Assembly (NCBI GenBank): GCA_016875025.1
Contig: VGSH01000005.1
Location: 1-52,261, forward strand
DNA: 52,261 nucleotides
DNA from: Deltaproteobacteria bacterium
GTDB lineage: Bacteria; Desulfobacterota; WTBG01; CAIYCZ01; CAIRTM01
Direction of reading: 5' to 3'
Shown here: positions 43,322 to 50,822 of the stretch, piece by piece
How the letters are laid out: each line of letters opens with the position of its first letter
How positions within the stretch are numbered: position 1 is the stretch's first letter
The notes under the pieces: generated by a model
What the model was told of the DNA's origin: nothing
Databases searched by the model: none
The model's input: the letters and a program-made list of their open reading frames with translations, nothing else
Position numbers and translations under genes: made by a program

Positions 43322-45205
43322 ATGGAACGACTGCGAACAATGTGTTTAGGTATTGCCGCGTTTGCGCTTTTCTCAGGCACGGCATTTGGCGCCTACCATC
43401 ATATGGATGAACAAGACGCCCCGAAATTTCTTAAGGCCTACCCCGACAAGGCGGGCACCAAGCTTGACGACTGCGCCTCGTGCCACAAGGGCAATACGTA
43501 CACGACAAAATCGGGGGCCGTGGTCACCGAGAGCGCATGCCAGTATTGCCACAAAGAATATGGGTATGATGGATCGGGTGATATCGCCAAAACACTGAAC
43601 CCCTTCGGCGCAGATTATAATACGGCGGGCAGGAATGTGGCAGCCCTCGAAGCAATTGAGGGCCTTGATTCCGATAATGATACCTACAGCAATATAACGG
43701 AAATCAATGCCATTCGCTATCCCGGGGACAAGCTCGACACGCCGGCAAAAGTGCCGGCCCCGCATATTATCTTGAGCCTTGATGAGCTTGAATCAATGTT
43801 CACGCCCCATGAACAGTTTATGCTTATGAACACCAGCCGGGGCGGAGAAAGCGGCTTCGACTATTATGTCACATATACCGGATTCATTATGCAGGAGCTG
43901 CTTGCGGGAATGGGCTGGACGGCTGCCAGCAGCGGCATAACCGTTACCGCACCCGACGGGTACAGCTACACCTATGCACGCACAAGCACCGGAACTAATT
44001 ACCCCATTGAGGGAACATATCCGCAGGCGCAATATTTTTATGATGCGACGGCAGACGAAGCCAATGGCGGCTGGGTCGACTACAGCGCGCCGGGCTGCGC
44101 CGGCAGGAACAATGGCGATATCATAGCGGTTCCTGGTGGTTTGAAGCTGCTGCTTGCCCACAAGGCCAACGGCGCCTATCTCGACATTGCCTACCAGGAC
44201 GACGCCAACAAGCTTGTGGGCGAAGGCCCGTTCCGGGCTGTGCCGCCGCAGTGGAGGCCCGGCTATCCCGACCGTCAGGCAACCTCGGCAACACCTGGTG
44301 CTGAACCCTGGCCCTATGATAAAAACGAGGTCTATACCGACCATAATGCGGGTTTTTCAGCCCGCGGTGTCGCCGCCATCCGGGTCGATCCGCTGCCTGA
44401 AGGGACAACTGAATATGACTGGAGAAACAGCCAGACCGATGCGGGCTGGGGCCTGCTCAATGACCAGAAGATAGTTATTTACGGCAATCTGCGCAATGGC
44501 AATATCAAGGGTACAGTGGTCTCGCGGGTACTGCAAAAGCCTATTGCGAATGCGCTGCTGAAAACCGATATGGGCGGCTATGAAACGCGTACCGACACCA
44601 AAGGCCAATTCATGTTAATGGGCGTGGTGTCCGGCCCTGAAAATGATGAAAAAAGCTATACCCTGACGGTATCTGCCGAAAACTATCGCAGCCAGACCGA
44701 GGATGTGACCGTGAGCCACGGTGATAACCAGACGGTTGCGTTCAGCCTGGAGTATGTAGAGTGCCTGCAGGATAGTGACTGCCCGGATGACAGTCTGTAC
44801 TGCACCGGTGCGCCGGTCTGTACGGATGAGGTGTGCGGGTTTGCAGCCGGTCCCTGTGGGGCGGGTGAAATCTGCGATGAGGGTAGTGATGAGTGCATCT
44901 GCGATGTAGAATGGGACCTGGACGGAGACTGTGACGTTGATAAATACGATTCCAGCATTCTCAAGCTCCGGCAAAAGAACGAAAAGACCGCTCTGTCGAA
45001 TCTGCATAAAGCTGAAAAAGCGGCGATGAAGGCTGCCCTAGGTTCCTCCGGGGACTGTGATGCAGAATGGGACCTGGACGACGACTGTGACGTTGATAAG
45101 GACGATTCCAAGCTTCTTAAGCTGCGACAAAAAGGCGAAAAGACCGCTGACAAGGAACGGCACAAAGCTGAAAAAGAGGCGCTCAAGGCTGCATCAGTTC
45201 CCTGA
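43322..45205 (+). CDS. Secreted diheme protein with possible molybdopterin-fold region, carboxypeptidase-like domain and two dockerin-like repeats
   Basis: A signal peptide (about 1-23) is followed by two c-type heme sites, CASCH (51-55) and CQYCH (73-77). Residues about 190-330 contain VTAPDGYSYTY and VGEGPFRAVPPQ, reminiscent of sulfite-oxidase-like molybdopterin domains but without a clear cofactor Cys. A carboxypeptidase regulatory-like segment (IKGTVVSRVLQKPIANALLK) and a Cys-rich stretch (CLQDSDCPDD...CICD) follow. Two C-terminal repeats of about 50 residues carry dockerin-like Ca-binding loops (WDLDGDCDVDKYD and WDLDDDCDVDKDD) with a charged helix. Probably an extracellular or outer-membrane redox protein acting with the porin. 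The whole architecture is new to me. Confidence 0.6.
   Translation: MERLRTMCLGIAAFALFSGTAFGAYHHMDEQDAPKFLKAYPDKAGTKLDDCASCHKGNTYTTKSGAVVTESACQYCHKEYGYDGSGDIAKTLNPFGADYNTAGRNVAALEAIEGLDSDNDTYSNITEINAIRYPGDKLDTPAKVPAPHIILSLDELESMFTPHEQFMLMNTSRGGESGFDYYVTYTGFIMQELLAGMGWTAASSGITVTAPDGYSYTYARTSTGTNYPIEGTYPQAQYFYDATADEANGGWVDYSAPGCAGRNNGDIIAVPGGLKLLLAHKANGAYLDIAYQDDANKLVGEGPFRAVPPQWRPGYPDRQATSATPGAEPWPYDKNEVYTDHNAGFSARGVAAIRVDPLPEGTTEYDWRNSQTDAGWGLLNDQKIVIYGNLRNGNIKGTVVSRVLQKPIANALLKTDMGGYETRTDTKGQFMLMGVVSGPENDEKSYTLTVSAENYRSQTEDVTVSHGDNQTVAFSLEYVECLQDSDCPDDSLYCTGAPVCTDEVCGFAAGPCGAGEICDEGSDECICDVEWDLDGDCDVDKYDSSILKLRQKNEKTALSNLHKAEKAAMKAALGSSGDCDAEWDLDDDCDVDKDDSKLLKLRQKGEKTADKERHKAEKEALKAASVP
44899..45199 (+). 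repeat. Duplicated dockerin-like module
   Basis: Two units (about 44899-45052 and 45056-45199) share GAATGGGACCTGGACG and TGTGACGTTGATAA and encode matching loop-helix modules, showing a recent internal duplication. Confidence 0.8.
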
Positions 45206-45513: not shown

Positions 45514-46698
45514 TTACTGCTTCCCAGCCCGTTCCCGCTCCTGGCGTATGATGCCCTCTTTTTGCTCAGGCCTGCCCATGTCGGGGAAAAAGCCCTGTTC
45601 CACGCACTCCCGGTAGCTCCAGTCCGGAGACGCCTGCGTGCGATAGGTCCAGAAGAACCAGCCGGCGTATTTCTCAAATGTCAGCAGCTGGGCCGCGGCA
45701 AAGGCCCGGTAGGCAGCTGAGAGCCGGAATTCATCCATTGCCTGCCGGGCATAGTTGCAGGGTTCTTGCGCCCAGCGCTCGGCCATCTTCTGATTCAGCC
45801 CGAGGCTCCATTCGCCGCAGTAGACCTGGTAGCCCGACTCGCGGACGATCTCGTCGGCCTCGGCGCGCAGGTCAACGGCGCTCTTGCAGATGTGGCTGAA
45901 AATGTCCCGATTGATGTCGTTGGGATCAAAGCATTGATAGCGGTGAATATCGATGGCCACGTTGCGAAACTCCGGCTCCTGCAGAAAGCCTGCATACTCC
46001 CGGAAGCTGCGGAACCCGTCGTGGAATACAAACGTCACGCGCTCGGGCGGGCAAAGGCGGCGAATGCGCTGATAGGCATCCAAAGTGTAGCGCTTCAGCA
46101 AATCGGTGGGCAGGTCCCAGCCCGGCTCATTGAGCGCCTGAATGCCATGCAGCGCCGGGTGATCCTTGTAGCGTTCAGCCATCAGCTCAAGCACATCGAG
46201 CGAGTGCTGAATGTATTCATCTTTCGTATGCCACTCGCACACGCCCAGGATACCGCCGTTGTCAAAGCCGTTCTGGCAGCCGGGCGCGGCATGCAGGTCA
46301 AGGACCACCCGCAGGCCGAACTCCGCGGCCCACTGGAACACCTTGTCCACGGTCTCGATGCCGCCGACCACGAACGGATAGCGCACATCCTTATAGCTTG
46401 CGTGATAGGGATAGTTGTTGCCGAACAGCCAGTGGCCGATTGGCAGGCGCACGGCATTGATGCCCGTACGCTGCAGCCAGGCAAAATCATCGCGGGTGAT
46501 GAAGGTGTTCCAGTGATGGTGCAGGCGCCTTGTTGCCTCGGCCTCGCCCAGTTCGACGCAGTAGGTGGTCTCATCGTTAGCCTGCAGGCCCTCGAACAGG
46601 CTGGGGGTGATCCATTTTTCCAGCACCAGCCAGCCGCCGAGATTGACGCCGCGCAGGTTGCCGCCGCGCAGGTTGCCGCCGCAGGCATGAACAATCAT
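45514..46698 (-). CDS. Glycoside hydrolase family 5-type enzyme, exo-beta-1,3-glucanase-like
   Basis: A 394-residue (beta/alpha)8 enzyme. RGVNLGGWLVLEKWITPSLF, TGINAVRLPIGHWLF and VVLDLHAAPG resemble fungal EXG1-like GH5 enzymes. The acid/base is Glu191 (LNEPG) and the nucleophile Glu296 (GEWS). There is no signal peptide, so it may act in the cytoplasm. ATG 46698 has GGAGG 7 nt upstream. The N-terminus is preceded by a GGNLR-GGNLR duplication (15-bp tandem, about 46651-46683). It lies 22 bp after the ABC gene, suggesting one operon. Confidence 0.85.
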   Translation of the reverse strand: MIVHACGGNLRGGNLRGVNLGGWLVLEKWITPSLFEGLQANDETTYCVELGEAEATRRLHHHWNTFITRDDFAWLQRTGINAVRLPIGHWLFGNNYPYHASYKDVRYPFVVGGIETVDKVFQWAAEFGLRVVLDLHAAPGCQNGFDNGGILGVCEWHTKDEYIQHSLDVLELMAERYKDHPALHGIQALNEPGWDLPTDLLKRYTLDAYQRIRRLCPPERVTFVFHDGFRSFREYAGFLQEPEFRNVAIDIHRYQCFDPNDINRDIFSHICKSAVDLRAEADEIVRESGYQVYCGEWSLGLNQKMAERWAQEPCNYARQAMDEFRLSAAYRAFAAAQLLTFEKYAGWFFWTYRTQASPDWSYRECVEQGFFPDMGRPEQKEGIIRQERERAGKQ

Positions 46699-46720
46699 AG
46701 CAGATCCTCCGGGAAAGGTT

Positions 46721-48418
46721 CTACAGCTCCAGGCGGCGCGAGAAGAAAGACGCGCCGTTGGCCATATGCGAAATCGCAATCAGCGTGGCATCGGGCAGCT
46801 GTTCGCAGATCAGGCGCAGCATGTGTTCCTCTTCCTGCTGGTCCAGGGAGTCGAAGGACTCCTGCAGGAATATCCACTGGGGCCGGTTGAGCAGCAGGCG
46901 CACCATGCCCAGCCGCTGCTGCTCGGCCCGTGCAAGGGTTTTGGCCCAGGTGTCCTTCTGGTCGAGCTGATCGATCAGGTCTTCAAGACCTGCCAGGCGC
47001 AGGGCCTGCTCGACGCTGTCCCGGGGGAAGACCCGGCGGCAGGCGGGGTAGGACGGGTAGCAGATGGCGTCGTGCAGCGTGCCGGTGGGCAGATGCGGCC
47101 GGGGCGGCATGAAGAAGAGCCGGCCCTGGCCGGGCAGTTCGATGACGCCGCTGCCCCAGGGCCGTATGCCGGCGATGGCGCGGAACAGCTTTGCCCCGGT
47201 CAGGGCGTTGCCGGTGATCAGTACATGCTCGCCCGTGCTGATCTCAATGTTGATATCGCGGGCCACGACCGTCCCGCCGTACTTGACGATACTGAGATCG
47301 CGCAAGGCCAGTACCGGCCGCTCCCCCCGCTTCACCTGAATCCAATGGTCCGGTTTGGCAAGCTCTTCGTCCAGGCTGTCCAGAACCTTCAGGAGGCTTA
47401 CAATGCGCTCCACCGAGGCCCGCCACTCGGCGATTCCCCCCAGGTTGCTGACCGGCCAGGAAAGGGCGGAGACCATCTGCTGGAAGGCCTGGGCCGACTG
47501 CATCAGCGCGCCCAGGGTGATTTTCCCCAGGATGTAGCGTGGGGCGGAAATCAGCAGCGGAAAGGCCATATTCAGCACGCCGTAGCCCTCACCGAACATC
47601 ACGATATTGCGCCATGCCGCGGTTTGCGCGTTCCAGGCCGTCCGGAGTTTGCCGAACAGCTCCTGGAACTGCAGCCGCTCACAGCTCTCGGCATGGATCA
47701 GCGCGATGGCCTGGCTGTTTTCCTGCGCCTCCAGCAGGCCGGCGCGAAAATTCGCCTCCGCAGACTGGCGGGCATTGGTGGCGCCGGTCAGGGGCTGGCT
47801 CACCCGCCAGCCGAGCCATGAGGCCAGGGCCGCGTAGATGATCGCGATCCAGATCAGATGCCCGTAGACCGGGACCTGGGCAAATCCCAGCTCAAGCGTC
47901 ACCACGCCCGAGCGTGACCACAGCACCTGCGTGAAGCCGATCAGCAGCAAAATAGAGTAGAGCAGCGAGTGGCCCATGACAACCGCCGACTCGGCGGCGA
48001 CACGGCAATCCTCTGCGATGCGGCCGTCCGGGTTGTCGTGTTCGCCCGGCAGGTGAGTGATCAGATAGTGGCGGCTGTCCGTCATCCAGCGGGAGAAGAC
48101 ATGCTCCGTCAGCCAGTTGCGCCAGTAAATCTGCAGATTGCGCTTTATGGCCAGATGCGAGCCGGTCAGTATCACGTTGACGGCAAACAGGATCGCTATC
48201 ACGCCGATCTGGGTCACGAGGCCGCGCATGGAGTGCTGCTCCAGGGCGTTGAACAGATCAGCGCTCCACTGCGTGAAAAGCACGGCCATGACCATTTGAA
48301 ACACGGTCAAAACAGCCAGGATGATGACCGTGCCCCGGATTTTCACCTTCCGGTCCGAGTACCAGAACTGCTTCGTCAACCGGAGAAACTCGACGAAAAA
48401 ATTGCTGGATTCAGGCAT
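46721..48418 (-). CDS. SbmA/YddA-like ABC membrane protein with degenerate ATPase domain
   Basis: The membrane half (about 1-330) has the SbmA/BacA-YddA signature: KRNLQIYWRNWLTEHVFSRW and HDNPDGRIAEDCR plus about six hydrophobic segments. The NBD half keeps the fold but not the catalytic residues. Walker A is GNALTGAK (403-410), one residue short with the GKS core lost. The Q-loop Gln is Pro (FFMPPRPHLP). The signature is LARAE (495-499), and the Walker B Asp is Gln519 (FLQES). Glu520 and the H-loop (AISH) remain. The 565-residue frame is uninterrupted. It may work without ATP hydrolysis, as SbmA does, or the NBD may be regulatory. Confidence 0.85.
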   Translation of the reverse strand: MPESSNFFVEFLRLTKQFWYSDRKVKIRGTVIILAVLTVFQMVMAVLFTQWSADLFNALEQHSMRGLVTQIGVIAILFAVNVILTGSHLAIKRNLQIYWRNWLTEHVFSRWMTDSRHYLITHLPGEHDNPDGRIAEDCRVAAESAVVMGHSLLYSILLLIGFTQVLWSRSGVVTLELGFAQVPVYGHLIWIAIIYAALASWLGWRVSQPLTGATNARQSAEANFRAGLLEAQENSQAIALIHAESCERLQFQELFGKLRTAWNAQTAAWRNIVMFGEGYGVLNMAFPLLISAPRYILGKITLGALMQSAQAFQQMVSALSWPVSNLGGIAEWRASVERIVSLLKVLDSLDEELAKPDHWIQVKRGERPVLALRDLSIVKYGGTVVARDINIEISTGEHVLITGNALTGAKLFRAIAGIRPWGSGVIELPGQGRLFFMPPRPHLPTGTLHDAICYPSYPACRRVFPRDSVEQALRLAGLEDLIDQLDQKDTWAKTLARAEQQRLGMVRLLLNRPQWIFLQESFDSLDQQEEEHMLRLICEQLPDATLIAISHMANGASFFSRRLEL

Positions 48419-48552
48419 GCGGGATCAGGGTTCAGTGAGTGGTTGAAAGGAACCGTTGAGATGGGCAAACTATAAAACAGGGCCGTTTGTGAGTCAAGAG
48501 TAATGTCGGCGCCCGCTGCGCGGGTCTACCCTGCGGTTGTGACAAAAAGCAT

Positions 48553-48643
48553 CCGTTCGTCCTGAGCCTGTCGAAGGGCAGAAAGGATCAGGTATCACAG
48601 GGCAGCCCCGTTCATGGTTCGACAAGCTCACCACGAACGGGGT
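48553..48643 (+). repeat. GAGCCTGTCGAA palindromic repeat, copy 4
   Basis: CCGTTCGTCCTGAGCCTGTC and GGTTCGACAAGCTCACCACG. It starts the roughly 730-bp gene-free region upstream of the SbmA/YddA-like gene. A further GTCATGCCGGACCCCGATCC palindrome follows at 48668-48695, echoed inverted at 49022-49046. Confidence 0.85.
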
Positions 48644-48840
48644 TGAAAGTCAAAAGCCAAAGACCTGTCATGCCGGACCCCGATCCGGCATCCATTTTTT
48701 ATGTTTGAGGTTCTATGTTCTAAAAAACCCGTTGCAGCGACGCCGAACAAAAGGCATGGGCAGGGGTGCCGGCGGCGCGCATGTCCGTAGGGGCGGTCCC
48801 CCCGTGCCTGCCCGGGTACGAAACCTTTTTTGATTCCTGG

Positions 48841-49019
48841 ACTCCGGCCTGCGAGACTGTGTCGCAATTCATTTTTTCGGTCATTTCGACCCCTTCGGCT
48901 GCGCTCAGGGCAGGCTCCGGGAGAAATCCTTGGTTCAAGAAAATCAACTACTTAAGATTCCTCACATTCGTTCGGAATGACATATTTGGCTATTGCGACA
49001 CAGTCTCTGCGCCGGAGTG
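48841..49019 (+). mobile_element. MITE-like element with long terminal inverted repeats
   Basis: ACTCCGGC-ctgc-GAGACTGTGTCGCAAT (48841-48868) is matched inverted by ATTGCGACACAGTCTC-tgc-GCCGGAGT (48992-49019): 24 of about 28 bp pair, including a perfect 16-bp block. The interior holds a GTCATTTCGACCCCTTCG...CGGAATGAC hairpin. No transposase; about 179 bp. Confidence 0.8.
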
Positions 49020-49084
49020 ACGGGCATGCTGGATGCCGGATGGGGGGGCCGGGCCACCGGATTGCAGATTGCTTGCAAAAAGCA

Positions 49085-49117
49085 ACAGCCCCTGTGCATG
49101 ATTCGCACAGGGGCTGT
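49085..49117 (-). terminator. Bidirectional terminator hairpin downstream of groEL
   Basis: ACAGCCCCTGTGC (49085-49097) and GCACAGGGGCTGT (49104-49116), 13-bp arms, with TTTTTAT on the plus side and TTGCTTTTTGC on the minus side. Confidence 0.85.
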
Positions 49118-49148
49118 TTTTATATCAAGGCAGCGCGGCTTGTATTGA

Positions 49149-50822
<1,674 letters not shown>

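Follow-up and report, generated by a model that had tools for sequence, protein, structure and literature searches.

A gene on the reverse strand of the window (the whole 52,261-nucleotide stretch of DNA analysed here) encodes a 565-residue protein (46721-48418) in which a membrane domain is followed by an ATPase domain with degenerate motifs. The locus raises the question of whether this domain is simply decaying, marks a step towards the ATPase-free transporters SbmA and BacA, or is kept for a role other than ATP hydrolysis. The open reading frame, Pfam, and sequence and fold matches identify a pseudo-ABC half-transporter. Its transmembrane domain (TMD; residues 1-345, 47384-48418) was delimited by a Pfam match over residues 23-338 and by alignment of its model to SbmA (9g3g), and scored 115 bits for ABC_membrane_2 and 66 bits for SbmA_BacA. 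The nucleotide-binding domain (NBD; residues 366-556, 46751-47323) reached only 18.9 bits for ABC_tran, below the Pfam cut-off of 25. The closest solved relative by sequence was Rv1819c (6tqe, E 2.7e-56), which aligns co-linearly across the two domains, and the fusion of an ABC_membrane_2/SbmA-type TMD to an NBD is the architecture of the YddA/BclA/Rv1819c type. The coupling-helix motif of that type is retained as DNPDGRIAED (residues 128-137, 48008-48037) in an alignment with YddA, Rv1819c and SbmA.

The earlier note had described losses at four ATP-site motifs within an intact 565-residue frame, and alignment against 61 intact relatives confirmed each of them. Walker A reads GNALTGAK (residues 403-410, 47189-47212), one residue short and with its lysine displaced, so that the Lys column is gone. 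In the Q-loop region, FFMPPRPHLP (residues 435-444, 47087-47116), the Gln has become Pro (P439), and the signature LARAEQQR (residues 495-502, 46913-46936) has LARAE where LSxGE is expected. The Walker B/D-loop segment WIFLQESFDSLD (residues 515-526, 46841-46876) carries FLQES in place of FLDEA, an Asp to Gln change that leaves the catalytic Glu. The frame is open throughout. The note's wording that all key motifs had decayed went too far, because three elements survive in the window copy: E520 as catalytic Glu, SLD in the D-loop and H551 (46766-46768) as the His of the H-switch, though the H-switch His or the D-loop Asp is gone in several relatives. Judged from these motifs, the ATP site (Walker A Lys, Q-loop, LSGGQ and Walker B Asp) is no longer functional, and the protein is a YddA/Rv1819c-type half-transporter with an NBD that has no working Walker A, Q-loop, signature or Walker B.

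The same lesions are found well beyond the window. In an alignment of 109 sequences, which included the 61 intact relatives and 42 members of the window protein's clade (35 of them core members), every intact relative (61/61) had K in the Walker A Lys column, and every clade member (42/42) had a gap there, from the same one-residue deletion. The Q-loop Gln and the Walker B Asp were likewise present in 61/61 intact relatives; among the 35 core members, 91% had Pro at the former position and 94% had Gln at the latter. The 42 non-redundant clade sequences (43-92% identity) come from Desulfobulbales, Gammaproteobacteria and Azospirillum. A contig scan of genomes returned 27 relatives (58-92% identity), mainly from Desulfobulbales metagenome-assembled genomes and isolates but also from records labelled Gammaproteobacteria, Thiosymbion and Nitrosomonas, and every one that covers the NBD shows the same degenerate motifs. 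The Walker A deletion is shared by Azospirillum plasmid proteins at 43-46% identity, by L051 and by the L008/L120-L122 group.

Trees built on the membrane domain alone placed these ATPase-dead sequences in one clade, both with 75 rows (SH-aLRT 99) and with 37 rows (UFBoot/SH-aLRT 100/99), nested among intact YddA-type ABC transporters. Since only the membrane domain was used, the grouping is not an artefact of NBD decay, and the trees and alignment show that the ATP site was lost once, in the common ancestor, and that the loss is clade-wide. This loss is either older than the split of the lineages that carry it or was spread by transfer. The Q-loop Gln persists in some members of the L051 and L008 branches, which suggests that the Walker A deletion preceded the loss of the remaining motifs. 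Four Azospirillum members (L042, L043, L143 and L144) carry the annotation 'ABC transporter ATP-binding protein/permease' despite the missing ATP site, a label that recognition of the clade corrects.

A second ATPase-dead YddA-type clade (L011-L014, with the wider loci L134-L137) was observed in the window's own family and class. It is independent, with its own motifs (Walker A GxDETART, Q-loop E/S, LPLAEQ, FLDRP and H to E), and a single inactivation for all dead YddA-type clades was rejected by an AU test of union with L011-L014 (p 3e-6). One of its genes, in L135, adjoins an RND efflux pump together with the pump's adaptor. A third, milder case (L111 / L139, genome G362) has an intact Walker A with the Q-loop RER, the signature LALDEQ, Walker B LDDA and a lost His; a GH3-like gene lies nearby.

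Is the dead domain still under selection? With a codon model (MG with kappa, F3x4), omega for 21 Desulfobulbales-type genes was 0.170 in the NBD and 0.182 in the TMD. The corresponding values were 0.10 and 0.09 for the gammaproteobacterial four and 0.14 and 0.14 for the L008 group, and intact controls gave 0.09-0.13 and 0.08-0.12; pairwise estimates were on a similar scale. These values show that the dead NBD is under purifying selection, with constraint comparable to that of the TMD. Several positions of the replaced site are themselves under constraint, since the Walker A (0.89), Q-loop (0.95) and Walker B (0.91) stretches exceed the mean conservation of the NBD (0.82); N404, R419, P439, Q519 and F522 are constrained and positions 405, 406 and 496 are variable.

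Plain pseudogenisation, by which NBD function was lost recently and the domain is drifting in a frame left open by chance, would account for the degenerate motifs, and within the window alone the open frame is the sole visible sign of function. It can scarcely be credited given the same lesions across 42 sequences, an NBD omega of 0.17, motif stretches more conserved than the rest of the domain, and a loss that predates the split of the carrier lineages or was spread by transfer. Neither relaxed selection nor a broken frame was found by alignment and omega, and simple decay is rejected by the clade-wide conservation together with omega. The earlier note had named intact close homologues with relaxed selection here as the outcome that would overturn it; the relatives share the lesions and omega is low, and its proposal of an NBD retained as a pseudo-ATPase gains support from the purifying selection found by the dN/dS check.

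Structure prediction points the same way. The AlphaFold2 model of the full protein, made with 27 sequences, had a mean pLDDT of 77, and Rv1819c was its first Foldseek match (VIA-align rows tied); the TMD model matched SbmA 9g3g over 306 residues (Z 23.1, 3.9 A). A model of the NBD alone (pLDDT 89.6, pTM 0.87) was closest to ABCD1 (Z 23.4, 2.2 A, 207 residues) and also matched Rv1819c (Z 20.1, 2.4 A, 209 residues), showing a predicted NBD fold that is kept complete. In this model a strand ends at residue 402 and a helix starts at 405, which leaves only Gly-Asn at the position of the phosphate-binding loop, and the shortened loop may close the ATP pocket.

If ATP is not hydrolysed, transport may draw on protons, on another gradient or on none. 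SbmA is described as proton-driven through a glutamate ladder (E193, E203, E269, E276, E287 and E378), as having neither coupling helices nor an NBD, and as a proposed descendant of a YddA-like protein after NBD loss (PMC13316013). By alignment, the ladder equivalents in the window protein are E136, V146, T214, E221, Q232 and E331, so that three of six glutamates are kept and those matching E203, E269 and E287 are absent; a full SbmA-like ladder was tested for and is not there. The predicted complete NBD fold also sets the protein apart from the SLiPT family (SbmA/BacA), which has none. The three retained glutamates are not diagnostic, because E. coli YddA, with an intact NBD, has the same three, and E331 is missing in 8/42 clade members.

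A proton-driven secondary transporter of the SbmA kind, in which the NBD persists as a scaffold or mere dead weight, is a possible, if rather doubtful, reading. It draws on the closeness of the TMD fold to SbmA, on the equivalents of E193, E276 and E378 (E136, E221 and E331) and on four conserved titratable residues specific to the clade (E60, H88, E143 and H150); it is weakened by the V, T and Q at the other three ladder positions, by the same three glutamates in YddA and by the variable E331. With the full ladder absent, SbmA-style proton coupling is not indicated, and E60, H88, E143 and H150 are put forward as candidate residues for energy coupling. The idea of an evolutionary intermediate towards SbmA/BacA, also raised in the earlier note, fared poorly: the clade nests inside the NBD-bearing YddA/BclA-type transporters and away from SbmA, whose own long-branch position in the tree is unsure. 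Because the ladder is incomplete, lacking the E203, E269 and E287 equivalents, and the DNPDxRI coupling helix is kept, it is not a step towards SbmA, and it seems to have left ATP dependence by a parallel route, separate from that of SbmA.

What such a transporter might carry is suggested by its neighbour. The ATG of a gene for a 394-residue enzyme (45514-46698, reverse strand) stands at 46698, 22 nt downstream of the transporter stop and preceded by GGAGG. Its Pfam match (PF00150), its best solved relatives, the glucan 1,3-beta-glucosidases 8z2w and 1cz1, and the NEP and GEW motifs with the catalytic Glu residues (acid/base and nucleophile) of the barrel mark it as a GH5 exo-beta-1,3-glucanase-like enzyme. 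No signal peptide was apparent on inspection, with 8-24 residues ahead of the barrel in most members, and the enzyme is apparently cytoplasmic. Among 146 Desulfobulbales genomes the transporter clade gene was found in 25; all of these also have the GH5 gene, which otherwise occurs once, as a contig-end fragment. At the fetched loci, GH5 lay near 55/63 clade genes (duplicates included) and near 0/62 intact relatives, many of which have short flanks in which an adjoining GH5 would still appear at least partly. Distances for the two proteins correlate with r 0.91, a value that, like the linkage counts, is uncorrected for shared ancestry and would fit the inheritance or transfer of both genes together. 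The genes are adjacent yet convergent in the L008 group, so the pairing outlived a rearrangement. These counts show a tight genomic link between the transporter and the GH5 gene, and the glucanase-like partner proposed in the earlier note is real, widely conserved and of the exo-beta-1,3-glucanase type.

The transporter is missing from nearly all sampled relatives in the window's family and class, and on the tree it nests inside Desulfobulbales sequences; this suggests that the pair (45514-48418) was acquired by horizontal transfer. Other frequent clade neighbours are an Exo_endo_phos protein, GH1, GH30 and GH3, with GH16 in one case. GH1 lies about 100 bp upstream of the transporter in three Azospirillum species, and Azospirillum and L051 members have GH1 with no GH5 next door; L043 and L120 are clade members without an adjoining GH5. 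A Pfam scan of 52 flanking ORFs, made for further conserved neighbours, gave scattered housekeeping families only, and no GH16 laminarinase was found in the window's own genome. Two further observations concern the surroundings of the pair: the intergenic stretch before groEL (48420-49150) holds three pairs of inverted repeats, among which are a 14-nt hairpin and a perfect 16-nt pair whose arms lie 123 nt apart, and a 627-residue protein (43322-45205) has two CxxCH haem-binding motifs near its N terminus and, at its C terminus, an acidic repeat that resembles a dockerin.

Because the GH5 partner is conserved and of the exo-beta-1,3-glucanase type, a glucan or glucoside substrate is favoured, in line with the sugar-linked substrate considered in the earlier note. 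A transporter whose dead motor has been kept for so long, nearly always beside a sugar-cutting enzyme, probably carries glucose-based sugars independently of ATP. Among the TMD residues specific to the clade, Gln and His are frequent (Q41, Q70, Q265, Q310, Q313, H88 and H150), at positions where the intact relatives mostly differ and often have a hydrophobic residue; this composition would suit a polar substrate. We consider it fairly probable that the clade comprises homodimeric importers of beta-glucosides or beta-glucan oligosaccharides that work without ATP hydrolysis and keep the NBD for structure or regulation. The lack of a GH16 laminarinase in the window's own genome and the clade members with no adjoining GH5 weigh against this reading. 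The ancestral NBD would have become an ATPase-dead pseudo-domain once; the homodimer would enclose a water-filled cavity like that of SbmA and Rv1819c, and transport would be proton-coupled or downhill. Beta-glucosides or short beta-1,3-glucan oligosaccharides would be taken into the cytoplasm and cut there by GH5 and by the GH1, GH3 or GH30 enzymes encoded nearby, and the pseudo-NBD may hold and couple the cytoplasmic ends of the dimer or serve as a regulatory or docking surface.

The inward direction is inferred from enzyme localisation judged by eye. The type IV fold usually exports and beta-glucan exporters with this fold exist, so the protein might export a glucan-linked compound that the glycoside hydrolases trim on the cytoplasmic side. 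This is unlikely, as the linked enzymes belong to degradative families, no glycan synthase was seen among the conserved neighbours, and the closest functional relatives, SbmA, BclA and Rv1819c, are importers (PMC13316013, PMC12003926). The tight pairing with GH5 and the high conservation of the NBD would also be expected of a protein that no longer transports and acts as a membrane sensor or anchor, recruiting or regulating GH5 through the pseudo-NBD; this too seems improbable with a TMD that is equally constrained and holds conserved polar residues, and with GH1 instead of GH5 next door in Azospirillum and L051 members. Heterodimeric type IV ABC exporters often have degenerate sites, and three genomes (G601, G617 and G641) also carry an intact YddA-type gene, which could fit a protein that is the inactive partner of an active half-transporter or of a separate ATPase. 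Such a heterodimer is quite unlikely: at the threshold used, most clade genomes lack an intact YddA-type paralogue, the window's own genome yielded no second full-length YddA-type protein that could contribute ATPase activity, and there is no ABC gene among the conserved neighbours. Both composite sites would also be non-canonical, because Walker A, the Q-loop, the signature and Walker B are all degraded. A dedicated active partner was rejected on the absence of such paralogues from the window's own genome and from most clade genomes.

The transition from ATP-driven ABC transporter to a secondary transporter such as SbmA is an open question, with NBD loss as the current proposal (PMC13316013). 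The present clade has a dead ATPase and a still fully constrained NBD, and includes the cultured, tractable genera Azospirillum and Desulfoprunum, which allows a direct test of NBD roles other than ATP hydrolysis. More tentatively, and with chances a little under even, it may be a separate, long-lived ABC-fold class that abandoned ATP, retained its two NBDs as a pseudo-ATPase module by a route independent of the one on which SbmA discarded its NBD, and was recruited for intracellular use of beta-glucans or beta-glucosides, with L011-L014 as a convergent case. No ATPase-dead YddA clade or pseudo-ATPase ABC transporter was found described in the literature searched, and the available portions of two family surveys do not mention degenerate NBDs; within that literature the clade is apparently undescribed.

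Among known systems, Rv1819c, a multi-solute and cobalamin importer of Mycobacterium tuberculosis (6tqe), and YddA/BclA resemble the window protein most, with full-length co-linear homology, the same domain order and coupling-helix motif, and the best sequence and Foldseek matches. Their ATP sites are complete, whereas throughout the clade a deletion has removed the Walker A Lys column and three more motifs are altered; BclA requires ATP hydrolysis (PMC12003926). SbmA/BacA share with the clade the TMD fold, a proposed independence from ATP and a place in or near the YddA radiation, but SbmA is described with a full ladder and neither NBD nor coupling helices (PMC13316013), whereas the clade protein has both an NBD and a coupling helix and an incomplete ladder. 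The partner has the GH5 fold family and both catalytic Glu motifs in common with fungal-type exo-beta-1,3-glucanases (1cz1, 8z2w) and differs in being bacterial, apparently cytoplasmic and operonic with a transporter. Degenerate nucleotide sites also occur in the type IV ABC exporters TAP, TmrAB, CFTR and BmrCD, in which each dimer retains one canonical site and ATP is bound at both; in the clade, by contrast, every copy of the sole NBD would be inactive, apparently within a homodimer.
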